Positions 23,999-35,191 of a stretch of DNA of 64,000 bases are shown in pieces. The notes beneath the pieces were generated by a model. It did no database searches. It was not told the origin of the DNA and worked only from the letters and a program-made list of their open reading frames with translations. The stretch covers positions 2,709,716 through 2,773,715 of the forward strand of contig NZ_CP034930.1 of assembly GCF_004014855.1 (NCBI RefSeq). Direction: 5' to 3'. The first letter of the stretch is position 1. Each line of letters begins with the position of its first letter. The position numbers were made by a program, and so were the translations under genes. This DNA comes from Apibacter raozihei (GTDB lineage Bacteria; Bacteroidota; Bacteroidia; Flavobacteriales; Weeksellaceae).

Positions 23999-24105
23999 AT
24001 TTGTTTATTGGTTAGAGGCTCGATATATGCAAATCTCTCTATTCTTCTTTCATATATAGCAAAAACAGTTTTTAATGAGTAAATTAACTCTAACCAATAA
24101 CAAAT
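23999..24105. repeat. Imperfect inverted repeat around the mtaB stop codon
   Basis: Left arm 23999-24017 and right arm 24088-24105 are reverse complements over 18 bases apart from a single inserted T; the inner 13 bases match exactly. The spacer is 70 bases. The right arm includes the mtaB stop codon and last codons. No coding sequence lies in the spacer. Confidence 0.6.
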
Positions 24106-25436
24106 GTATTATGAAATATTGCTGACTTCACTAATACATTACCTGACGCATCAATAGAATCCAGATAAATTTCCTCTAACTGATTTATTAATTTTTCATT
24201 ATATGGCTGAGTTACTCTCACATAATTTTCTGTATAACCAAACATCATTCCATTTTTGTTTTCATGTTCCCATAATACTGTTTTAATTTTACCTAATTGA
24301 GATTCATAAAATGCATGACGTTTTTTCTCAGATAAAATTTTAAGCATCTTATTTCTTTTTTTTCTTTCACTTATTGAAACTACTCCCTCCATAGCTATAG
24401 CTTCAGTGTTTTCCCTTTCAGAGTAAGTAAATACATGTAAATAACTAATAGGTAAGCTTTGTATAAAATTATAGGTTTCCATAAACTTTTCTTCCGTTTC
24501 TCCAGGAAATCCTACAATAACATCTACTCCAATACAAGCATCTGCAATAACTGAACGTATCTTAGATACTCTTTCTTTGTATAGTCCGGACAAGTACCGG
24601 CGTTTCATTTTCTTTAATATATCATCTGAGCCCGATTGTAAGGGTATATGAAAGTGAGGTACAAATACTTTTGACTGACTAACAAAGTCAATGGTTTCAT
24701 TTTTTAACAGGTTAGGCTCTATGGAAGATATGCGTATTCTTTCAATACCGGGAACTTTGTCTAATTCTTTTACTAATTCAAAAAAAGTGTGTTCATGCTT
24801 TTTATTTCCGAATTCTCCTTTTCCATAGTCTCCTATATTAACCCCTGTCAAAACAATCTCTTTAATATTCTTCTTAGAGATCTCCTGAGCCTGAATTAAA
24901 ACATTTTCAAGTGTGGATGATCTGGAAATTCCTCTTGCTAATGGAATTGTGCAGTAAGTACATTTATAATCACAACCATCCTGTACTTTAAGAAATGCAC
25001 GTGTTCGATCGCCTATCGAGTAAGAACCTACAAAAAAATCAGCCTCATCAATTTCACATGAATGAATTTGAGCGTCCGAATCTTTTTTTAATTCAAGTAT
25101 GTATTTATATATATTAAACTTTTCCTTAGCTCCCAATACTAAATCTACGCCTTCTATCTCTGCAATTTCTTTAGGTTTTAGCTGAGCATAGCATCCGATA
25201 ACGCAAATTAATGCTTCCGGATTTTTATTTAAAGCCCTTTTAACTATGGTTTTGCATTCTTTGTCAGCATTATCTGTAACTGAGCATGTATTAATAATAT
25301 ATACATCTGCACTATCATCAAAAAGAACTTTTTTAAAACCTAACTCAAGCAATTGTCTGGCTATCGTAGAAGTTTCTGCAAAGTTTAATTTACACCCTAA
25401 AGTGTGAAAAGCTACTGATTTTGTATTGTCTAACAT
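24090..25436 (-). CDS. mtaB: tRNA t6A37 methylthiotransferase MtaB
   Basis: A 448-residue radical-SAM enzyme that converts t6A to ms2t6A at tRNA position 37. The N-terminal UPF0004 domain has cluster cysteines in 'HTLGCKLNFAE', 'INTCSVTDNADKEC' and 'VIGCYAQLKP'; the radical SAM cluster motif is 'CDYKCTYCTIP' followed by 'ARGISRS'; a TRAM domain ends the protein. The 'GCKLNFAE' start and length favour MtaB over MiaB or RimO. TsaD in this window makes the t6A substrate. A good promoter lies directly before the ATG. Confidence 0.93.
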   Translation of the reverse strand: MLDNTKSVAFHTLGCKLNFAETSTIARQLLELGFKKVLFDDSADVYIINTCSVTDNADKECKTIVKRALNKNPEALICVIGCYAQLKPKEIAEIEGVDLVLGAKEKFNIYKYILELKKDSDAQIHSCEIDEADFFVGSYSIGDRTRAFLKVQDGCDYKCTYCTIPLARGISRSSTLENVLIQAQEISKKNIKEIVLTGVNIGDYGKGEFGNKKHEHTFFELVKELDKVPGIERIRISSIEPNLLKNETIDFVSQSKVFVPHFHIPLQSGSDDILKKMKRRYLSGLYKERVSKIRSVIADACIGVDVIVGFPGETEEKFMETYNFIQSLPISYLHVFTYSERENTEAIAMEGVVSISERKKRNKMLKILSEKKRHAFYESQLGKIKTVLWEHENKNGMMFGYTENYVRVTQPYNEKLINQLEEIYLDSIDASGNVLVKSAIFHNTFVIG

Positions 25437-25440
25437 ATTG

Positions 25441-25470
25441 CAAAATTAATATATTTTTTTGTCAGTCAAA
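25441..25470 (-). promoter_or_regulatory. Full Bacteroidota-type promoter of mtaB, probably leaderless
   Basis: On the minus strand TTTG (25467-25470), an 18-base spacer and TAATTTTG (25441-25448) match the -33/-7 consensus. The -7 box ends four bases before the ATG at 25436, so transcription should begin at or next to the start codon. Confidence 0.65.
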
Positions 25471-25492
25471 ATCAATAGCTTCTCATTAATTA

Positions 25493-26227
25493 TTAATTAT
25501 TTAAAATAATTCTGTCGTGAAGTGGTTGAATAGGACGATTATTACTTTTAGGTAAGTGGTCTGCTATTTCATCAATTTCTTGCTCAGTCATATCAATAGG
25601 ATTTTTAAACACTATCCAGGTAACATTTTCAGCACAAGGGGGTGTAGTTAAAGATCCTACATAGGTATAATACGATTTCTTTTTTGGATACATTTTTTCA
25701 GGATTAAATACTATATGAGTCTCTTCTTTACTGTGTTTACCTAATTTTTTAAATACATCCAGTTTTTCAAAATATGAATTTTCAGGTCCGTCTTTTACCA
25801 TAACTGCTATTACCAATACAGAACCGTCTTGAGCTCTGTGAACAAAGTGAAGCTCTAAAGGATATCTGATACCGTCAATTTTATGTTCTGACTCTTCATG
25901 AGCATGAAACTGAGCTAAAGTATATACTTTGTTATTGTACGTTATAGTACTACCTTCTTTAAAATCGAATTGCAAAGAGTGACCATTATCCTCTATTTCA
26001 TCAATTTCACCAGAACCATAATTAAAAATGATCTTAGGTAGTTTTTTATCAAGCTTAGACTTGGTAATATTAATAGGTGATTGATACTTACCTTTTCCGC
26101 ATTGTTCACCACCTTGCATTTCCCCCCAGTGTTCCGGCGAACCTTCTCCGTCATACCCCCAATGGTGGTTTTGTGAAAAAACAAAAGAAAAAGCTAAACA
26201 TCCGATAAGAAATAATTTATTTTTCAT
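25493..26227 (-). CDS. Exported alpha-class carbonic anhydrase
   Basis: A 244-residue enzyme with a signal peptide (MKNKLFLIGCLAFSFVFSQ). Alpha-class marks: 'HWGYDGEGSPEHWGE' at the mature N-terminus, 'YQSPINI', the zinc histidines in 'AQFHAHEESEH' and 'LELHFVHRA', and 'VGSLTTPPCAENVTW'. Two Cys ('GEQCGKG' and 'PPCAEN') are placed for the disulfide common in this class. It hydrates CO2 in the periplasm. Divergent from the speD operon. Confidence 0.95.
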   Translation of the reverse strand: MKNKLFLIGCLAFSFVFSQNHHWGYDGEGSPEHWGEMQGGEQCGKGKYQSPINITKSKLDKKLPKIIFNYGSGEIDEIEDNGHSLQFDFKEGSTITYNNKVYTLAQFHAHEESEHKIDGIRYPLELHFVHRAQDGSVLVIAVMVKDGPENSYFEKLDVFKKLGKHSKEETHIVFNPEKMYPKKKSYYTYVGSLTTPPCAENVTWIVFKNPIDMTEQEIDEIADHLPKSNNRPIQPLHDRIILNN

Positions 26228-26250
26228 TTAGTGTAATATTTTAATTTATG

Positions 26251-26258
26251 CAAAATTA
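26251..26258 (-). promoter_or_regulatory. -7 element of the carbonic anhydrase gene
   Basis: TAATTTTG on the minus strand, 23 bases before the ATG; a TTG lies 20 bases further upstream as a possible -33 element. Confidence 0.55.
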
Positions 26259-26354
26259 AAGAGTATCTCATTAGCCATCAAGTTAAAGTTATGTTAATTA
26301 TTTTATACTAATTTTTCAACATTATAAATATAATAAAAATAAAAACGTATTTTA

Positions 26355-26362
26355 TATATTTG
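26355..26362 (+). promoter_or_regulatory. -7 element of the speD operon
   Basis: TATATTTG fits TAnnTTTG and ends 27 bases before the speD ATG at 26390. It overlaps an in-frame TTG at 26360, which argues that the TTG is not the translation start. Confidence 0.55.
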
Positions 26363-26389
26363 CAAAACTTAATTTGTTGTATAGTTCTT

Positions 26390-26740
26390 ATGAATTACCT
26401 TGGTCTTCACTCTTTATTAACTTTAAAAGTTAATGAAAGTAACAAACTGCTATCTTTAGATGAATTTTTATTTTTTACGAAAAAAATACTAGTTAAGTAT
26501 GAGCTCGAAAAAGTAGGTTGCTCATCATTTGTTTTTGACAACGGTGGTTTTACTTCTGCATTTTGTCTTAAAGAATCTCATATTTGCATTCATACATGGC
26601 CGGAACTTAGCACATTGACCCTTGATATTTATTTATGTAATTATTTTCAAAACAATAATCAAAAAGTAAAAGATATTTCAGAAGAATATATATATTTCTT
26701 TAATGCTGACATAATCTCTAAACATGAAATTTATAGATAA
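26390..26740 (+). CDS. speD: S-adenosylmethionine decarboxylase proenzyme (prokaryotic class 1B type)
   Basis: A 116-residue pyruvoyl-enzyme precursor that decarboxylates AdoMet to the aminopropyl donor. From the ATG at 26390 the motif 'KESHICIHTWPE' places the self-cleavage site at Glu62-Ser63, His68 and Cys83 ('IYLCNYF'), the same numbers as in the Thermotoga maritima enzyme, so it should be active. The N-terminal 'LGLHSLL' corresponds to the family's 'LG-H'. A TTG ten codons upstream is rejected because it lies in the promoter. First gene of a six-gene operon; the next gene starts four bases after its stop. The C-terminus is slightly shorter than usual. Confidence 0.93.
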   Translation: MNYLGLHSLLTLKVNESNKLLSLDEFLFFTKKILVKYELEKVGCSSFVFDNGGFTSAFCLKESHICIHTWPELSTLTLDIYLCNYFQNNNQKVKDISEEYIYFFNADIISKHEIYR

Positions 26741-26743
26741 CCT

Positions 26744-27934
26744 ATGATTGTTCGCTGCCCAAAATGTTCTAAAAATAACTCCTCAAGTTTTGGAAACAAT
26801 TACTTATATTTTGCATGTGCCAAATGCAAAAGACTCTTTGTTTTTAAATCCAATAATTGGCAATTATTAAAATCTTTGCGTAAAAATATCCATACTATTT
26901 TAGTTTTAGGCCAGAAAGGTATTTTTGATAGTCAAGAATACACTGTAACAGGTATTCTAATCAAAAAAGACGATGAATTTTATGAGTGGACGGAATATAT
27001 TTTACAATCGGAAACATTAGATTTTATTTATCTTTCAGAATATAAAGGTCATTGGACTATACTAAAAGAGGTCGAAGATTTAAAAGAAGTTAGAAAATTA
27101 TCTAAAAATAAATTACCCTCTTCTATTTCTTCAAAATTTAAAGAAAATAATGTAAAATTAGTTTCAGCTTTAGGCTTTTTCGACTTCAACCCATCTTTAC
27201 CTTATAAGACTCTGGAATATGATAACACCCCCTATTTGTTATCTATTGAGGAATCATTAGAAAAGTCGATTTATGTAGGTAAATATTTTACTCACAAAGA
27301 AATGAAAATAGCTTTTGGAAGCTTGTCATTACCTCCTAAAAAAGGTTATGGCCTCCTTCAGCCATTTTTAATTAATGTGAAAAATATGTCTTTAATCTTT
27401 ATATTTATATCTTTATTTCTAGCTGGTTTTCATTATTGGGCATATTCAAAAGAAAAAAATCAGGAAATTCTAGATACTAATGTTGAATATTATAATAATG
27501 AGGTTTTTATTACACCATCATTTGAAGTTGAAGATAGAGTTGGAAATTTAATAATTAAACTGTATTCCTCCGTTTCTAATTCTTGGACTAGTTGCGATAT
27601 GGTCTTGGTAAATGAATCTAATAATAATAAAGAGTATGCATTTAAAGATATTGAATATTATTACGGATATAGCGAAGGTGAAACGTGGTCTGAAGGAAAC
27701 CGTGAAGGTATTGTAAAACTGTGTGGAGTAGGTAAAGGAAAGTATCACATGGAATTTACCATGTCTGCAGATAAATCAAGTGTAAGCAGACACTCAATGA
27801 AAATTGAAGTATTATGGATAAAACCTTCATATTGGAATCTTTTGATAATTATTGGAGGTTTAGTTGTTATTTTAGTACTTATTTTCGTCGTAAACGTTTT
27901 ATATAATAGAATTAAGTTTAATCAAAATAATTAA
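26744..27934 (+). CDS. Zinc-ribbon DUF4178 membrane protein
   Basis: A 396-residue protein. Residues 1-35 form a zinc ribbon (Cys5, Cys8, Cys25, Cys28). Residues about 50-200 carry DUF4178 ('LGQKGIFDSQEYTVTGILIK' and a conserved 'EWTEYILQ'), a beta-rich domain of unknown function. A TM helix near 213-231 ('LIFIFISLFLAGFHYWAY') leads to an external or periplasmic domain (about 232-362, rich in Tyr, Ser and Glu), and a second TM helix lies near 365-390. DUF4178 genes often occur next to DUF350 and polyamine-synthase-like genes, as here. It may link a cytoplasmic complex to the membrane; its function is unknown. Confidence 0.85.
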   Translation: MIVRCPKCSKNNSSSFGNNYLYFACAKCKRLFVFKSNNWQLLKSLRKNIHTILVLGQKGIFDSQEYTVTGILIKKDDEFYEWTEYILQSETLDFIYLSEYKGHWTILKEVEDLKEVRKLSKNKLPSSISSKFKENNVKLVSALGFFDFNPSLPYKTLEYDNTPYLLSIEESLEKSIYVGKYFTHKEMKIAFGSLSLPPKKGYGLLQPFLINVKNMSLIFIFISLFLAGFHYWAYSKEKNQEILDTNVEYYNNEVFITPSFEVEDRVGNLIIKLYSSVSNSWTSCDMVLVNESNNNKEYAFKDIEYYYGYSEGETWSEGNREGIVKLCGVGKGKYHMEFTMSADKSSVSRHSMKIEVLWIKPSYWNLLIIIGGLVVILVLIFVVNVLYNRIKFNQNN

Positions 27935-27937
27935 GTT

Positions 27938-28123
27938 ATGAAATTATTACATTTTATTAAAAACAATAAAACATCACTTATTATTGGTTGCTTAGCATTA
28001 CTTTTTTATTTCCTTTACACATTCACGGGTAACCGGATATGTGATTGTACAAAAACAGAAAAATCCAGTACAAGCAATAGTCAAAACAGAAATCATTCGA
28101 GATCTTTCTTTTATCATAAATAA
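27938..28123 (+). CDS. Small single-TM protein in the speD operon
   Basis: A 61-residue protein: a short basic N-terminus (MKLLHFIKNNK), one TM helix ('TSLIIGCLALLFYFLYTFTG'), a Cys pair ('RICDCTK') just after it, then a Ser/Asn-rich stretch and a basic-aromatic end ('RSFFYHK'). The N-in topology predicted by its lysines puts the CxC motif outside. Spacing (3 bases before, 18 after) shows it is part of the operon. I do not recognise the family. Its position between DUF4178 and DUF350 suggests a subunit of the same membrane complex. Confidence 0.72.
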   Translation: MKLLHFIKNNKTSLIIGCLALLFYFLYTFTGNRICDCTKTEKSSTSNSQNRNHSRSFFYHK

Positions 28124-28141
28124 ATATATAAAAATATAAGT

Positions 28142-28354
28142 ATGGACATATCATTAAAAGTTATAATCAATTCATTAGTATTTTCAGGTTTAGGATTATT
28201 AATCTTAATTATATCCTATTACATCATTGAAAAACTTACACCTGAAAAAACCTGGAAAGAAATATCAGAAAATGGCAACATAGCTTTAGCTATTGTATTA
28301 GCTGCATCTATATTAGGCATTTCACTTATAATAAGTGCAGCAATACATGGATAA
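28142..28354 (+). CDS. DUF350 membrane protein (YjfL-like half)
   Basis: A 70-residue protein with two TM helices. The second carries the DUF350 hallmark 'ENGNIALAIVLAASILGISL' followed by 'IISAAIHG'. DUF350 proteins such as E. coli YjfL usually contain two such units; this one has a single unit and may dimerise. In E. coli, YjfL is encoded beside YjfC, an ATP-grasp enzyme related to glutathionylspermidine synthase, so the link with polyamine chemistry is recurrent. The last eight bases overlap the start of the aminopropyltransferase gene. Confidence 0.88.
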   Translation: MDISLKVIINSLVFSGLGLLILIISYYIIEKLTPEKTWKEISENGNIALAIVLAASILGISLIISAAIHG

Positions 28355-29861
28355 AATTAAGTTCGAATATTTACTTCTTTTTTCCGTTTTTATAATCGCT
28401 ACCTGTGGGCTGGTATATGAATTGGTTGCTGGTGCTTTAGCTAGCTATTTATTAGGTGATTCAGTAAAACAATTTTCATTTATTATAGGGGTTTACTTAT
28501 TTTCCATGGGAATAGGTTCATATTTTTCAAAATTCTTTAATAAAAATTTACTAAATGTATTTGTTGAAGTAGAAATTTTGGTTGGACTCATTGGAGGATT
28601 AAGTTCAGTTATACTTTTTTTAATCTTCAATATTGCTAGTTTTTTTCAGTTTACACTTTACTTACTTGTGTTTCTTACCGGCTGTTTAGTAGGCTTAGAG
28701 ATTCCAATTCTTATGAACATTCTTAAAGGTAGAATAGGTTTTAAAGATTTAGTTTCCAATGTTTTTACCTTTGATTATATAGGAGCATTGATCGCTTCTA
28801 TACTTTTTCCACTTATACTAGTTCCTAAATTGGGATTAATGAAAACTTCCTTGTTTTTTGGAATGATAAATGTCAGTATTGCTATATTTCTTGCTTTCCA
28901 CTTAAAAAGAGAGCTAAAAAATGTTATTATTTTGCAAATTAAAGCTGTAAGTTCTTTTGTAATTTTACTGGTTGCTTTTATCTTTTCTGAGAAAATTTTA
29001 TCTTTTTCAGAAGAAAAAATGTATGGTGAAACAATAGTATATACTCATTCTACTTCTTATCAAAGAATTGTTCTAACTCATAACCACAACGAATACAGAT
29101 TATATTTAAACAATAACCTGCAATTCAGTTCTGCCGATGAATATAGATATCATGAAGCACTTGTTCATCCAGCCATGTCTCTGGCCTCAAATGTTGAAAA
29201 TGTACTTATTCTGGGAGGAGGAGACGGACTTGCCGTGAGAGAAGTTCTTAAATATAGAGATGTTAAAAATATCACTTTGGTTGATTTAGACGAAGGGATG
29301 ACTAAATTATTTAAAAATAACTCATTGTTAACGAAACTAAACCTCAATTCTCTTTGGAATGAAAAAGTTAAAATTATTAATTCTGATGCTTACATTTGGA
29401 TTAAAAATTGCGATAAAAAATTTGATGTTGTAATTGTCGATTTTCCGGATCCTTCTAACTATAGTTTAGGTAAATTATATTCCGTGGGTTTTTACAAAGC
29501 TTTATATAATAAAATTACTCCAGAAGCTATAGTTGCAATACAAACTACTTCACCATATTTTGCGCCAAGGTCATTTTGGTGCATCGCTGAAACTATAAAA
29601 CAGGTTTTTCCTAAAGTTGAAGCTTATCACGTATATGTTCCTTCTTTTGGAGAATGGGGATTTACTTTATCTGCTAAATCTTCTAAAACTGATTTTCATA
29701 AAATACAAAGGAAAATAAGTAATTTACGATTCTACACATATAATTTTTATGATTTTACCTTATTTACCAAAGACATGTTAGCTAAGGATATTGAAGTAAA
29801 TCGTTTAGACAATCAGGTTTTAGTAAGGTATTTTGATGAAGAATGGGGAAAGATTCAATAA
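28347..29861 (+). CDS. Aminopropyltransferase (spermidine-synthase-like) fused to a membrane domain
   Basis: A 504-residue protein; the ATG at 28347 is chosen over a GTG four codons upstream. Residues 1-225 have about seven TM helices with a typical 'GLVYELVAGALASYLLGD' and 'FSMGIGSYFSKF'. The soluble half is a SpeE-type methyltransferase-fold enzyme: 'LILGGGDGLAVREVLKY' near residue 290, acidic 'TLVDLDEGMTKLF', and the catalytic-loop 'VIVDFPDPSNYSLGKLYS' with Asp where SpeE has its catalytic Asp. It should take the aminopropyl group from decarboxylated AdoMet made by SpeD. The acceptor is unknown; membrane fusion suggests a membrane-near acceptor. Overlaps the DUF350 gene. Confidence 0.88.
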   Translation: MDKIKFEYLLLFSVFIIATCGLVYELVAGALASYLLGDSVKQFSFIIGVYLFSMGIGSYFSKFFNKNLLNVFVEVEILVGLIGGLSSVILFLIFNIASFFQFTLYLLVFLTGCLVGLEIPILMNILKGRIGFKDLVSNVFTFDYIGALIASILFPLILVPKLGLMKTSLFFGMINVSIAIFLAFHLKRELKNVIILQIKAVSSFVILLVAFIFSEKILSFSEEKMYGETIVYTHSTSYQRIVLTHNHNEYRLYLNNNLQFSSADEYRYHEALVHPAMSLASNVENVLILGGGDGLAVREVLKYRDVKNITLVDLDEGMTKLFKNNSLLTKLNLNSLWNEKVKIINSDAYIWIKNCDKKFDVVIVDFPDPSNYSLGKLYSVGFYKALYNKITPEAIVAIQTTSPYFAPRSFWCIAETIKQVFPKVEAYHVYVPSFGEWGFTLSAKSSKTDFHKIQRKISNLRFYTYNFYDFTLFTKDMLAKDIEVNRLDNQVLVRYFDEEWGKIQ

Positions 29862-29873
29862 AGAACTGCTAAA

Positions 29874-31472
29874 ATGAATAAAGAAAATTATAATCGAAGA
29901 GAATTTTTCAAACTTTCATTTATCGGATTGTTCATAACTCCTTTTTTACTTCAATGTAAGCAAAAAGCAAAAAAATTACTCATAAACCTTACCGGCACTA
30001 ATCATATTTTAGGACATCGGCTATGGAGTAAAAATTTTCCAGAGGTTTCCGGTATTAAAGAAGTAAAATATTTAATTATTGGAGGAGGTATTTCAGGGCT
30101 TTCCGCTGCAAGACAATTAATTAGTAAAGGTATTACAGATTTTGCACTACTTGAAATGAGTGATGAAATTGGTGGAAATGCATCATCAGGCAGAAATAAT
30201 ATTTCTTCATACCCCAGAGGTGCGCATTATTTACCTCTACCAGATAAGGAAAATAAGGAGTTACTTAATTTCCTTTATGAATCTAATATAATAATTAATT
30301 ACAAAGAAGGAATTCCGGTTTATGATGAAGAACAATTATCTTTTGCTCCTCACGAACGGTTATTTATAAATAATTCTTGGCAAGAAGGACTTATTCCTAA
30401 GTCAACGCGTAGTAAAGATTCTGAATTGGAATTTAAACGTTTTTTAAAAGAAATGGACATATTCCGAAATATGAAAGGAGCCGATGGAAAATTTTTCTTT
30501 GCTATCCCTTTTTCATTTATTAGCCTGGACACAACACTACAATCACTCGATAAACTTACGATGAAAGACTGGTTGATAAAAAATAATTTTTCTGCTGAAG
30601 AATTGCTATGGTATGTCGATTATTGTTGTAAAGATGATTATGGTTTAGGTATAGATTCGGTATCTGCTTGGGCTGGAATCCATTATTTTGCATCTAGAAA
30701 AAATAATGCAAACTTATATGCGACAGATGCTGTTCTTACATGGCCTGAAGGAAATGCAAGATTAGCAGCCCATCTTAAAAAACGCTGTATAAACCATATC
30801 TATAAAAATCATTTGGCTTACAAAGTAGGTTTGGAAAAAGATAAGGTTCATGTACATGCATTTAACTCAAAAAATAATCAATCTACACTTATAAAGTCAG
30901 AAAAAGTCATTGTTTCCTCTCCTCAGTTTATAAACAAGTATTTAATTAAAGACAGACATGTATTTACCAAAAACTTTAATTATAGTCCCTGGATTGTTGC
31001 AACTTTTACTGTCAATTCGGCCTTACACGATAGTGAATTCCCTCTTTCATGGGATAATGTGATTTATAAAGGAAAAGGCTTAGGGTATATATACAATCAG
31101 AATCAAAATTTAAACCAGATAAACGATAAAAAAGTGATAAGTTATTATTTATGCCTTTCAGGTCCAGATTTAAATTTAGAACGCAAAAAACTTTTTAATA
31201 AAACAGAAAACTATTGGAGAAATTATATTCTTAACGATCTAAAAAAAGCACATCCTGATATAGAAAATTTCATTGAAAATATGGAAATTTACCGAATAGG
31301 TCATGGAATGATAGCTCCAGTTCCAGGATTTATTTTTGGTAAAGAAAAAAAGGAGGCTTCAAAAACAATAAACGACAAAATATATTTTGCCCATACTGAT
31401 TTAACAGGATATTCATTATTTGAAGAAGCCTTCCAACAGGGAATAAATGCAGCAAACCAATTATTAAAGTAA
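29874..31472 (+). CDS. Tat-exported FAD-dependent amine-oxidase-like lipoprotein
   Basis: A 532-residue flavoprotein. The N-terminus has a twin-arginine motif (Arg8-Arg9 in 'NRREFFKLSF'), a hydrophobic stretch and a lipobox ending at Cys28 ('FLLQCK'), so it should be exported folded with its FAD and anchored by lipid. The dinucleotide-binding motif is 'LIIGGGISGLSAARQL' near residue 66 with 'FALLEMSDEIGGNASSG' next; the C-terminal flavin segment is 'AHTDLTGYSLFEEAFQQG'. It belongs to the amine oxidase/protoporphyrinogen-oxidase-like superfamily. Its place after the aminopropyltransferase suggests oxidation of an aminopropylated product outside the cytoplasm. Last gene of the operon; only five bases separate its stop from that of osmC. 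Confidence 0.86.
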   Translation: MNKENYNRREFFKLSFIGLFITPFLLQCKQKAKKLLINLTGTNHILGHRLWSKNFPEVSGIKEVKYLIIGGGISGLSAARQLISKGITDFALLEMSDEIGGNASSGRNNISSYPRGAHYLPLPDKENKELLNFLYESNIIINYKEGIPVYDEEQLSFAPHERLFINNSWQEGLIPKSTRSKDSELEFKRFLKEMDIFRNMKGADGKFFFAIPFSFISLDTTLQSLDKLTMKDWLIKNNFSAEELLWYVDYCCKDDYGLGIDSVSAWAGIHYFASRKNNANLYATDAVLTWPEGNARLAAHLKKRCINHIYKNHLAYKVGLEKDKVHVHAFNSKNNQSTLIKSEKVIVSSPQFINKYLIKDRHVFTKNFNYSPWIVATFTVNSALHDSEFPLSWDNVIYKGKGLGYIYNQNQNLNQINDKKVISYYLCLSGPDLNLERKKLFNKTENYWRNYILNDLKKAHPDIENFIENMEIYRIGHGMIAPVPGFIFGKEKKEASKTINDKIYFAHTDLTGYSLFEEAFQQGINAANQLLK

Positions 31473-31477
31473 AGATA

Positions 31478-31879
31478 TTACCAAGTAAACGAAATGGTTT
31501 GAGCTACCTCTGGTGAAAGCGATAAGGATACCGGGCAAGTATGGGCTACACGCTCTAAAATAGTTTTTTGCTTTTCATCTAAATTCAGATTGGGGAAATA
31601 AATATCTATTTTGATTTCACCAATCCTTCTGGGAGAAGAATTCATTATCTTGGTCACTTCTGCACGAGTACCTATTAAATCAATGTTCATTTCACGTGAT
31701 TTTATACCCATAATCGACAATATACAGCTAGCCAAAGCACTTGCCACTAAATCGGTAGGCGAGAAACTTTCCCCTTTCCCATGATTATCTACCGGTGCAT
31801 CTGTGGCTATTTTCGCTCCACTTTGAATATGAACAGAATCTGTGTGAAGATCTCCTTGATAAATTACTTCTAAAGTCAT
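31478..31879 (-). CDS. OsmC-family peroxide-reductase-like protein
   Basis: A 133-residue protein of the OsmC/Ohr family, which reduces organic peroxides through two cysteines. The first is in 'LVASALASCILSIMGIK', the second in 'ERVAHTCPVSLSLSPEV'. The arrangement is more like OsmC-type YhfA proteins than Ohr. It follows the acetyltransferase by 22 bases, so the two are likely cotranscribed. It is convergent with the polyamine-like operon. Confidence 0.9.
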   Translation of the reverse strand: MTLEVIYQGDLHTDSVHIQSGAKIATDAPVDNHGKGESFSPTDLVASALASCILSIMGIKSREMNIDLIGTRAEVTKIMNSSPRRIGEIKIDIYFPNLNLDEKQKTILERVAHTCPVSLSLSPEVAQTISFTW

Positions 31880-31901
31880 AATATTTGTATTTAATTATTT
31901 T

Positions 31902-32354
31902 TTAATTATTTTCAATCGTACAATTAATCCACTCAGGATCGAAAGAGGCTTTACATTTTTTATAAAATTTAATTGCCGGTTCATTCCATTCCAATACCTG
32001 CCAGGTCATACCCGAAAAATTATTACTTTTCATTTCTTTAAGCAAAGAATCAAAAAGCTTACTACCTACTCCCTTCCCTCTCCAGTCCTTACTCACAATA
32101 ATATCTTCCAGATACATACGTTCACCTTTCCATGTTGAAAATCGAATATAATATAAAGCAAAACCTACCACCCTTCCGGATTTTGTATCTTCTGCAACAA
32201 AAGCCCACCAAACAGGATGTTTACCAAATCCACTTTTTTCAAATTGATCAATTTTGATTGTAACCTCTTCAGGTGCCTTTTCAAATTCCGCTAATTCTCT
32301 TACTAACTCTAATAATCTCGGACAATCTTCTTTTTTTGCTTTTCTTATGATCAT
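31902..32354 (-). CDS. SSAT-like diamine/thialysine N-acetyltransferase
   Basis: A 150-residue GNAT enzyme that strongly resembles the spermidine/spermine N1-acetyltransferase (SAT1) and thialysine acetyltransferase family: 'LVRELAEFEKAPEEVT', 'GFGKHPVWWAFVAED', 'VVGFALYYIRFSTWKGERMY', 'LEDIIVSKDWRGKGVGSKLF' and 'EWNEPAIKFYKKCKAS' all match the family pattern, including the acetyl-CoA loop R-G-K-G-V-G. It would acetylate polyamines or lysine analogues. Its location 0.4 kb from the speD operon supports a polyamine connection. A -7 element lies 25 bases upstream. Confidence 0.85.
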   Translation of the reverse strand: MIIRKAKKEDCPRLLELVRELAEFEKAPEEVTIKIDQFEKSGFGKHPVWWAFVAEDTKSGRVVGFALYYIRFSTWKGERMYLEDIIVSKDWRGKGVGSKLFDSLLKEMKSNNFSGMTWQVLEWNEPAIKFYKKCKASFDPEWINCTIENN

Positions 32355-32379
32355 GTATTTTCTTTATTTTACTTTATAC

Positions 32380-32387
32380 CAAAGTTA
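32380..32387 (-). promoter_or_regulatory. -7 element of the SSAT-osmC unit
   Basis: TAACTTTG on the minus strand fits TAnnTTTG, 25 bases upstream of the acetyltransferase ATG. Confidence 0.5.
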
Positions 32388-32508
32388 CTAATTAATACTA
32401 ATACGTAAGCATCTAAAATTTCGAAAACGTCAATTTGTCACTATTAATGAGTTGGTATTTTTTTTGATTTTTAATGGAAAATAAATTTTAATAAAAGATA
32501 TAACACAT

Positions 32509-34392
32509 ATGGCAAAAGGTAATATCAATGTATCAGTAGAAAACATTTTTCCTCTGATAAAAAAGTTTTTATATAGTGATCATGAGATATTTTTACGTGA
32601 ATTAGTTTCAAATGCAACTGATGCTACTCTAAAACTTAAACATTTAACCAATATTGGTGAAGCTAAGGTTGAATATGGTAGTCCTATCATTGAAATTAAA
32701 ATAGATAAAGAAAATAAAACACTTCATATTATCGATCAGGGTATCGGTATGACGGAAGAAGAAGTGCAAAAATATATCAATGAAGTAGCTTTCTCGGGTG
32801 CAGAAGATTTTATATCTAAACATAAAGATGCTGAAAAAGAAGGTATTATCGGACATTTTGGTCTAGGTTTTTATTCATCTTTTATGGTCGCGGATAAAGT
32901 GGAAATTATTACCAAATCATTTACAGATGCACCTGCGGTTCATTGGGTATGTGACGGTAGCCCTCAATTTGATTTAGGCCCTTCAGATAAAACTAATCGT
33001 GGAACTGAAATTATTCTTCATATAGCTGAAGATTCTCAGGAGTTTTTAGAGGAATATAAAATACGGGAATTACTGCAAAAATATAATCGTTTTATGCCTA
33101 TTCCAATTAAATTTGGAACTAAGGAAGAAACTTTACCTTTACCAGAGGATGCAGATAAAGATGCTACTCCAGAAAAAGTAGTTGTAGATGATATCATTAA
33201 CAATCCCAACCCTGCCTGGACCAAAGCTCCTTCTGAATTAAAAGAGGAAGATTACAAAGCTTTTTATCATGAGCTGTATCCAATGCAGTTTGATGAGCCA
33301 TTATTCAACATACATTTAAATGTTGACTACCCCTTTCATTTAACCGGAATATTATTTTTCCCCAAACTTGGTAACAATATAAATATTGATAAAGATAAAA
33401 TACAATTATATCAAAATCAAGTATTTGTAACCGATGAAGTTAAAGGAATTGTTCCAGACTTTTTAATGTTACTACGAGGAGTTATTGATTCTCCGGATAT
33501 TCCGTTGAATGTTTCCCGTTCCTACCTTCAGGCTGATGGTGCTGTGAAAAAAATATCTTCTTACATCACGAAAAAAGTGGCTGATAAAATGGTTTCATTA
33601 ATGAATGAAAACCGTGAAGACTATGAGAAAAAATGGAATGATATAAAGGTTGTTATTGAATATGGAATGATTTCAGAAGAAAAATTCTTTGAAAAATCAG
33701 ACAAATTTGCATTATATCCTACTGTTGATGGTACTTATTATACATTTGATGAGCTTAAAGATAAAATTAAAGATCTTCAAACTGATAAAGACGGAAAATT
33801 AATCATACTTTATGCTTCCAACATCCATGAACAGGATCAATATATTCAAACAGTAAAAGATAAAGGATATGAAGTTTTACTTCTAGATTCTCCTATTACA
33901 TCTCACTTAATTCAGAAACTGGAAACTTCTAAAGAAAATATATCTTTTGTTCGTGTTGATGCAGATCACATTAACAACTTGATTAAAAAAGAAGAAGAAA
34001 CAGTATCTGTTCTTTCAGATGAAGAAAAAGAAAACCTGAAAAAAGAACTGGAAGAAGCTATTGATTCTAAAAGTTATACAATTGAGCTGGAAAATCTAGG
34101 CAAAAATGATGCACCTTTTATGTTAACACAGCCCGAATTTATGAGAAGAATGAAGGATATGCAGCAATTGGGAGGTGGTATGTACGGAATGATGGGTAAT
34201 TTCCCTGAAATGTATAATCTGGTAGTAAACACTAATAGTCCGCTGGCTTCAGAAATTTTATCCAAAGATAATAAAGAGGAGAAAGCCAAAGTTATTAGAC
34301 AAGCTCTTGATTTGGCAAAACTGTCTCAAAATATTCTCAAAGGTAAAGATTTAACTGATTTTATCAAACGTAGTTTTGAAATGATCAAATAA
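32509..34392 (+). CDS. htpG: Hsp90-family chaperone HtpG
   Basis: A 627-residue cytoplasmic chaperone of usual length. GHKL ATPase motifs: 'LRELVSNATDATLKL', 'IDQGIGMTEEE', 'GHFGLGFYSSFMVAD', 'RGTEIILHI'. The middle domain has 'NVDYPFHLTGILFFPKL' and 'DSPDIPLNVSRSYLQAD' with the catalytic Arg; the C-terminal dimerisation domain includes the Met-rich 'MRRMKDMQQLGGGMYGMMGN'. Monocistronic with a strong bidirectional terminator after it. Confidence 0.97.
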   Translation: MAKGNINVSVENIFPLIKKFLYSDHEIFLRELVSNATDATLKLKHLTNIGEAKVEYGSPIIEIKIDKENKTLHIIDQGIGMTEEEVQKYINEVAFSGAEDFISKHKDAEKEGIIGHFGLGFYSSFMVADKVEIITKSFTDAPAVHWVCDGSPQFDLGPSDKTNRGTEIILHIAEDSQEFLEEYKIRELLQKYNRFMPIPIKFGTKEETLPLPEDADKDATPEKVVVDDIINNPNPAWTKAPSELKEEDYKAFYHELYPMQFDEPLFNIHLNVDYPFHLTGILFFPKLGNNINIDKDKIQLYQNQVFVTDEVKGIVPDFLMLLRGVIDSPDIPLNVSRSYLQADGAVKKISSYITKKVADKMVSLMNENREDYEKKWNDIKVVIEYGMISEEKFFEKSDKFALYPTVDGTYYTFDELKDKIKDLQTDKDGKLIILYASNIHEQDQYIQTVKDKGYEVLLLDSPITSHLIQKLETSKENISFVRVDADHINNLIKKEEETVSVLSDEEKENLKKELEEAIDSKSYTIELENLGKNDAPFMLTQPEFMRRMKDMQQLGGGMYGMMGNFPEMYNLVVNTNSPLASEILSKDNKEEKAKVIRQALDLAKLSQNILKGKDLTDFIKRSFEMIK

Positions 34393-34411
34393 CATATTTA
34401 TAGTTAAACAT

Positions 34412-34444
34412 AAAAAAGCCACTTAAATAAAAAGTGGCTTTTTT
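34412..34444. terminator. Bidirectional terminator
   Basis: Perfect 13-base arms (34412-34424 and 34432-34444) with A-run and T-run ends, between htpG and the convergent DUF4197 gene. Confidence 0.88.
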
Positions 34445-34468
34445 TATATTAATATTAACTGAATATTA

Positions 34469-35191
34469 TTAATTCGAACTACCTCCGAGCAAAGTTCCAA
34501 GTATACTTTTAGAAATTGAATTTTTCATTTCATAATCTTTAGCAACTTCAAAAAGGCCATCTACAATTTGTTGTGATGCATATTGGCTTATGGAAGAACT
34601 TACATTCGAATTTGTTGAAGATTGTTTATTTCCTAATAACGCATCAATTGCACTTTTTACGCTTTTATCTTTAGTTGCATTATTAATTAAAGAGGTTAAT
34701 CCATTTGAATTTAACTGACTTTCTACCTGAGGTTGAATAGCTGCAATCAATTTAGATTGAGTTTTATTTTTTAAATATTCCGTAGCAGCTCCTTTACCTC
34801 CGGATAAAATAGATACAGCATCTGAAATAGTCATTTCCTGTATAGCGGAAGTTATTATAGGCTTAGCTACGTTTACAGAAGATTCTGCTGCCTTTCCAAT
34901 ATATTCTTTTTCTTTAGTAACCAGACTGCTTAGACCTAAATTTTCAAGTTTTGTATTAATTTTTTTGAGCTCATCAGGCATAACAGCTTCAATTAAAGCA
35001 TTGGTAATAAATGAATTTGAATTACCTAACACAGAAAAACCCTGATTAGTACTTGAGGTCATCATCTGTTTGACCGTATTTAAACCTGCAGTAGAGGTTG
35101 TAGAAGTAGAAGAACCTTGTGTATCACACGACTGTAAACTTATAACAAAAGTAGAGACTAAAATTAGTTTAGAAATTGTACTTATTTTCAT
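34469..35191 (-). CDS. DUF4197 lipoprotein
   Basis: A 240-residue protein with a lipoprotein signal (lipobox 'SLQSC', Cys22) and a mostly helical DUF4197 domain. Typical pieces are 'VNVAKPIITSAIQEMTISDA', 'ILSGGKGAATEYLKNKT' and 'LIAAIQPQVESQLN'. DUF4197 proteins are periplasmic, of unknown function, found in Proteobacteria and Bacteroidota. A Ser/Thr-rich linker follows the lipid-bearing Cys. Stands alone. Confidence 0.85.
   Translation of the reverse strand: MKISTISKLILVSTFVISLQSCDTQGSSTSTTSTAGLNTVKQMMTSSTNQGFSVLGNSNSFITNALIEAVMPDELKKINTKLENLGLSSLVTKEKEYIGKAAESSVNVAKPIITSAIQEMTISDAVSILSGGKGAATEYLKNKTQSKLIAAIQPQVESQLNSNGLTSLINNATKDKSVKSAIDALLGNKQSSTNSNVSSSISQYASQQIVDGLFEVAKDYEMKNSISKSILGTLLGGSSN

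Follow-up and report, generated by a model that had tools for sequence, protein, structure and literature searches.

A membrane-fused aminopropyltransferase operon of Apibacter raozihei and a lysine-ended small protein as its candidate acceptor

Introduction

What receives the aminopropyl group when an aminopropyltransferase is fused to a membrane domain? As far as we know, the target of such membrane-fused spermidine synthase (SpdSyn) proteins has been open since at least 2019, and the question is raised by an operon in the genome of Apibacter raozihei, a single contig of 3.29 Mb. The operon lies at positions 26390-31472 of the window, that is, the whole stretch of 64,000 nt that was analysed and to which all coordinates refer, and it consists of six plus-strand genes with intergenic gaps of 3, 3, 18, -8 and 12 bases, exactly the genes, order and spacing given in an initial annotation of this DNA. 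In turn, the genes encode an S-adenosylmethionine (AdoMet) decarboxylase (SpeD), a DUF4178 protein, a membrane protein of 61 amino acids (aa), here called p61, a short DUF350 protein, a fusion of seven transmembrane helices (7TM) with an aminopropyltransferase, and a flavoprotein exported by twin-arginine translocation (Tat). Judging from sequence comparison, we give an even chance to the reading that the operon serves to aminopropylate a protein at the membrane, and not to make free spermidine, the C-terminal lysine of a tail being modified outside the cytoplasm.

A lysine-ended tail accompanies the enzyme

The proposed acceptor is p61 (27938..28123, + strand), which has no Pfam match and is built of a short N-terminal segment, a single transmembrane (TM) helix predicted to run from inside to outside, a CDC..TE motif, a length-variable linker and then a C-terminal His-Lys that is invariant (84/84). 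The final four residues, encoded at 28109..28120 (+) in the window, are FYHK in 70, YYHK in 12 and FHHK in one of 83 genes, and the histidine codon is CAT in 43 and CAC in 40 of them, a synonymous variation from which selection on p61 at the protein level follows. A pattern search of the genome for the FYHK-type terminus gives five sites, of which only p61 is a real open reading frame (ORF), and a second protein with this terminus is thereby excluded. The Cys-Asp-Cys was also considered as the key feature of p61, but was rejected since distant compact clusters drop the Cys motif and yet retain the C-terminal HK (RFYHK, AFYHK, RYYHK, HYHK and YQHK). Because the net positive charge is greater before the TM helix than after it in 72/78, the p61 tail is predicted to be outside the cytoplasm.

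In distant Bacteroidota the cluster has two forms, a compact one with a DUF350 of about 70-100 aa and a long one that includes an exported lipoprotein and whose DUF350 measures about 290 aa. Our first sample, which was exploratory, comprised 15 compact and 15 long-form clusters of Bacteroidota together with 9 plasmid clusters, extending over Bacteroidota, Pseudomonadota and Gemmatimonadota, and an exported or membrane protein with a flexible lysine-ended tail is found in 39/39 of them; for L106 and L162 the form was judged by eye, because the DUF350 profile has no match on their cluster strand. The carrier of the tail varies. In the long-DUF350 clusters it is the lipoprotein, which ends with ..RSGGFGK or similar; in L107 and L146 DUF4178 itself carries it as a C-terminal fusion, preceded by a third TM helix and terminating with GSGHK or SGSHK, and in L161 such a lysine tail terminates a DUF4178-like protein. 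Tails on plasmids end with ..GPSHK and ..GPTHK in Novosphingobium, ..YGSHK in Burkholderia, ..RFRHGK in Gemmatirosa, ..GPESGK in Ensifer, ..NRVK in Tritonibacter and ..PSSGK in Alteromonas.

A fresh sample of 30 loci was taken at class level, of which 21 were complete, ligase-free and had DUF350 or DUF4178 detected, and 20 of these 21 carry a lysine tail: 19 passed the filter set beforehand, and L209 (..PSGVNHK), whose short frame stayed below the hydropathy threshold, was added after inspection. The one locus without a tail, L219, consists of just DUF350 and the fusion. The tail is present in L221 and L224 though DUF350 is undetected there by profile, and absent from L213, L214, L216 and L218, which lack both DUF350 and DUF4178 and were excluded as another set of genes; the truncated loci L225 and L231 and the ligase cluster L226 were left out. 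As background, Lys ends 17.6% of the long ORFs in Flavobacteriales loci, and HK or GK ends 6/862. We give no P value, the loci being related by descent. The initial annotation had spoken of a modified lipid or peptide as the product, and of these two the peptide is favoured, since across phyla the enzyme comes with a small protein of its own that ends with lysine.

Ligase clusters carry a different tail

In clusters with an ATP-grasp ligase resembling glutathionylspermidine synthetase, the tail of the partner mostly ends with Gly-Gly. For example in E. coli K-12, YgiB (L187) ends with ..SRSMGG and YjfM (L189) with ..GHWGG, and both adjoin genes annotated as peptide-spermidine ligase; further Gly-Gly tails are found in L100, L154, L155, L193, L194, L196 and L226, and the Gly-Gly partners have a tail rich in S, G and R before the end. 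In L155 (genome G157) both enzymes were identified by profile search, and in L100, L154 and L226 the ligase-like frames were recognised by eye; these four tails all end with GG. The divergent ligase-side tails of L191, L192, L197 and L199 have endings other than Gly-Gly. On the whole, the last residue of the tail tends to follow the type of enzyme, Lys with the transferase and mostly Gly-Gly with the ligase. A profile search of the window genome gave no match to the ATP-grasp ligase family PF03738.

The group acted on is the carboxylate of a C-terminal glycine for glutathionylspermidine-type ligases and an amine for aminopropyltransferases, and lysine has in its side chain the 4-aminobutyl group that is also found in putrescine. 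It is mainly because of the correlation between last residue and enzyme that we propose the tail as the acceptor, a claim that may well go either way; that its C-terminal lysine is the residue modified seems to us somewhat short of an even chance. In the ligase systems, the comparison of tails suggests that YgiB and YjfM may be natural substrates of YgiC and YjfC. The same correlation bears on another explanation, which we regard as rather unlikely, namely that a small molecule or lipid is aminopropylated at the membrane and the lysine tail is an accessory for gating or positioning DUF350 or the transferase. A small product could be handled by DUF350 and the 7TM domain, which both lie in the membrane, and a short flexible tail suits a plug or a docking peptide, but a last residue that follows the enzyme type is unexpected for gating with the same DUF350 partner.

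Topology and catalytic domain of the fusion protein

The fusion protein (28347..29861, +, 504 aa) is of the PRK03612 type (NF002956, 8e-193), with the 7TM domain at 28347..29000 (+) and a spermidine-synthase-like catalytic domain at 29031..29756 (+). Its hydrophobicity has seven peaks, and the seven spans match the helices of the AlphaFold2 model (pLDDT 78, pTM 0.70). The N-terminus and loops 2-3, 4-5 and 6-7 are positive, as expected for the inside, and this pattern was followed in 33 diverse fusion homologues from Bacteroidota, Pseudomonadota and Gemmatimonadota, where the mean number of Lys plus Arg is 2.8 at the N-terminus, 2.0, 2.8 and 3.2 in these three loops, which alternate with loops averaging 0.4, 0.1 and 0.2. 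Because of this positive-inside pattern and the seven spans, we predict with good confidence that the catalytic domain is extracytoplasmic and the N-terminus inside. The charge pattern of the fusion, the orientation of p61 and the twin-arginine leader of the flavoprotein therefore suggest that catalytic domain, p61 tail and flavoprotein would meet on the outer face, and a product made at the membrane, as the initial annotation supposed, fits this topology.

It could also be imagined that the module is the same and the catalytic domain cytosolic, the tail or another substrate being modified ahead of export and the 7TM domain acting as an anchor or exporter. Decarboxylated AdoMet (dcAdoMet) is indeed produced in the cytosol, and the ligase homologues of the sister systems appear cytosolic; such an arrangement is nevertheless improbable in view of the seven hydrophobic peaks and the clean alternation of charge in the 33 homologues, with which the AlphaFold2 helices are consistent. 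Within the 7TM helices there are acidic residues, of which E25, E118 and D143 are kept in 33/33 and E76 in 32/33 homologues, and these could pass a dication such as dcAdoMet.

Among solved spermidine synthases, the catalytic domain is matched best by sequence to 7xif (6.9e-33) and by fold to 1inl, the best Foldseek match (2.2e-15). It has the fold and motifs of an aminopropyltransferase, retaining in GxG(D/E)G (GGGDG, 29214-29228) the acidic residue for dcAdoMet, as well as both Asp of DxxDP (DFPDP, 29439-29453), while the amine-pocket Tyr of IPTY is replaced by Phe, Leu or Met. The genome has no further strong match to spermidine synthase.

SpeD and the polyamine setting of the genome

The first gene, speD (26390..26740, +, 116 aa), encodes a probable AdoMet decarboxylase (Pfam AdoMet_dc, 8.5e-16, over the cut-off) that was taken to be intact, which is supported by Ser63 (pyruvoyl), His68 and Cys83 of the class 1b enzymes being invariant in 80/80 sequences. 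SpeD homologues using ornithine or arginine rather than AdoMet are described within a study of SpeD neofunctionalisation (PMC10407285). The proline of HTWPE is kept in 80/80 sequences.

By family and pattern searches, on which all our genome-wide tests are based, SpeD is the single AdoMet decarboxylase of the window genome, and each of 17 cluster-bearing genomes has exactly one. The same family search gave no match over the cut-off for NspC in the 17 genomes and none for CASDC in the window genome; a weak CASDC match there is probably a paralogue of another decarboxylase. One protein of deoxyhypusine/homospermidine-synthase type occurs in each of the 17 genomes, which also have arginine-decarboxylase-like matches. 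Homospermidine made by the homospermidine-synthase-type route does not require dcAdoMet. Because there is one AdoMet decarboxylase, no CASDC over the threshold and a homospermidine-synthase-type protein, the operon appears dispensable for the main triamine of the host, and the view of the initial annotation that the product is not ordinary spermidine gains support to the extent that free spermidine is unlikely.

We thus consider it very probable that the operon is not mainly for free spermidine. That ordinary spermidine or another free polyamine is made, with the membrane partners serving for export, would agree with intact catalytic motifs and with the genome having no other AdoMet decarboxylase and no other strong spermidine-synthase match, but an AdoMet-independent triamine route is present, the amine-pocket tyrosine is replaced, and the catalytic domain, as predicted, would be separated from the putrescine of the cytosol, and we therefore hold this explanation to be quite improbable. 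In the work of Li et al. 2019, membrane fusions of this kind reportedly failed to complement a spermidine synthase mutant.

Conservation of the operon and its other members

The 80 named loci used here (Flavobacterium, Chryseobacterium and Epilithonimonas) are the best named relatives of the fusion protein, picked by fusion similarity, and in 79/80 the six genes are all present with their order unchanged, the contig of the remaining one (L084) beginning within the cluster. Because of this the grouping is more than chance, which answers the check proposed in the initial annotation of whether the six genes travel together. Any match is found in 15/99 close genomes, and the distribution of the operon is therefore patchy. 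The GC content of the operon is 29.1% and that of the flanks 30-32%, and in the SpeE tree the same-family genome G302 is placed among Chryseobacterium; horizontal transfer from Flavobacterium is unsupported, as the window sequence has its own long branch in the tree and a GC content near its flanks. Among 8 same-genus relatives that were searched, a 7TM-SpdSyn is found in one only (G003, locus L100) and is of the ligase/Gly-Gly type, that is, the type of system varies among close relatives.

The DUF4178 protein (26744..27934, +, 396 aa), which has invariant Cys residues and an AlphaFold2 pLDDT of 85, consists of a zinc ribbon (Cys5/8/25/28), a cytoplasmic beta domain, a TM helix at about 212-234, an outer beta-sandwich at 240-359 and a TM helix at 364-393. 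The Pfam match is weak (4.4e-5, 24.1 bits with a cut-off of 25), and DUF4178 genes stand at the equivalent place in an annotated Novosphingobium cluster. The outer domain gives only weak beta-sandwich matches, for example the p24 GOLD domain (TM-score 0.53 by target length). The DUF350 protein (28142..28354, +, 70 aa) is of the YjfL type, has two TM helices and is the single copy in the genome; it scores 55.3 bits with a cut-off of 26 (9.6e-15) and covers half of the Pfam model, being a half-size version.

The last gene encodes a flavoprotein of the amine-oxidase superfamily (29874..31472, +, 532 aa; Pfam 1.7e-10), which is probably lipid-anchored and has a twin arginine at residues 8-9 and an invariant Cys28. 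Of the exported flavin oxidase that had been annotated, the export is borne out by the leader, and the word oxidase stands for a superfamily assignment only. In an alignment judged by eye, no lysine stands out as the one that polyamine and monoamine oxidases typically have near FAD N5, and His residues 44, 48, 118, 270, 477 and 507 are invariant; because of both, the chemistry may be other than amine oxidation. The flavoprotein is also the least constant member of the operon, because no oxidase is detectable in the divergent clusters L147 and L149. Elsewhere, in L105, L222 and L223, two convergent 7TM-SpdSyn genes have a Tat-type flavoprotein between them, in L105 with a further membrane protein, and a long-DUF350 cluster adjoins. 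In L213, L214 and L216 the 7TM-SpdSyn adjoins a gene for a protein of 715-747 aa from an unknown family, with no DUF350, DUF4178 or lysine tail, and this is perhaps another use of the enzyme.

A possible mechanism

Putting these parts together, SpeD would produce dcAdoMet in the cytosol, as its family and catalytic residues indicate, and the 7TM domain, perhaps with DUF350, may admit the dication to the outer side by way of the nearly invariant helix acidic residues. There the spermidine-synthase-like domain would aminopropylate the final lysine of p61 at its epsilon-amine, the lysine side chain acting as a peptide-tethered mimic of putrescine. This would give N-epsilon-(3-aminopropyl)lysine, the aminopropyl counterpart of deoxyhypusine. 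The tail may be held by DUF4178, to which it is fused in some clusters, and the Tat flavoprotein may act on the modified product.

Several points weigh against this mechanism. The modification of p61 is a prediction from sequence, and dcAdoMet outside the cytoplasm, brought there by a putative transporter, would to our knowledge be unprecedented. The ligase homologues, for example YgiC, look soluble and cytosolic though their partner is exported, so that in the ligase system the tail may lie on a side other than the enzyme's. Moreover, the His-Lys or Gly-Lys may be invariant because it serves in binding or gating, and the oxidase is missing in the long-DUF350 clusters, as in L147 and L149. Taken as a whole, a hitherto undescribed post-translational modification, with an outward enzyme, delivered dcAdoMet and an aminopropyl-lysine tail, while sister systems arrive at a similar polyamine-tipped tail by ligating spermidine to Gly-Gly so that one envelope structure is reached by two routes, is a tentative proposal that we rate below even.

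Relation to known systems

Operons with 7TM-SpdSyn, DUF350, DUF4178 and a lipoprotein have been described as the second group of PspA-CesT/Tir operons, where polyamine sensing or the aminopropylation of another substrate was suggested citing Li et al. 2019 (Ravi et al. 2024, PMC11237479). The core set of AdoMet decarboxylase, membrane-fused SpdSyn, DUF350 and DUF4178 is thus already known to co-occur; this kind of cluster is not new, and the novelty claimed for it in the initial annotation was overstated. The window operon differs from that group in its short DUF350 and in having p61 in the lipoprotein's stead, and no CesT/Tir or PspA gene is among the ORFs inside or flanking the operon (24000-34500). 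A role in envelope stress would be a guess by analogy with the PspA-linked relatives.

The clusters of AdoMet decarboxylase, MFS-SpdSyn fusion and DUF350 in Li et al. 2019, for which reportedly no acceptor was named, have these three linked components and the proposed role beyond free polyamines in common with the window operon, which differs as a compact form with a half-size DUF350, p61 and the Tat flavoprotein. The E. coli systems YgiB-YgiC and YjfLM-YjfC are alike in the flexible S/G/R-rich tail on an exported partner, in polyamine chemistry and, in one of them, in DUF350, but have an ATP-grasp ligase instead of an aminopropyltransferase and tails ending with Gly-Gly. Deoxyhypusine on eIF5A resembles the product proposed here in a polyamine-type chain on a lysine epsilon-amine, but the aminobutyl comes from spermidine, the lysine is internal and cytosolic, and the enzyme is unrelated. 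A working precedent by analogy for a terminal-residue modifier of this build is the fungal NHMT, which has an N-terminal 7TM and a SpdSyn-like catalytic domain and methylates the N-terminal histidine of secreted lytic polysaccharide monooxygenases at the endoplasmic reticulum (PMC10349129); it differs in using SAM for methylation, in having Ile where GxG(D/E)G has its acidic residue, and in a 7TM reported from fungi only.

In the literature examined, Li et al. 2019 not among it and PMC11237479 the one paper found to bear directly on the subject, the lysine tail, the Gly-Gly contrast and the outward topology appear unreported. A lysine tail in nearly every complete cluster across phyla offers a concrete and testable substrate and residue for the membrane SpdSyn fusions. 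If the proposal is true, it would be a new protein modification, dcAdoMet outside the cytoplasm would be implied, and DUF350, DUF4178 and the E. coli proteins YgiB and YjfM would be tied to one function.

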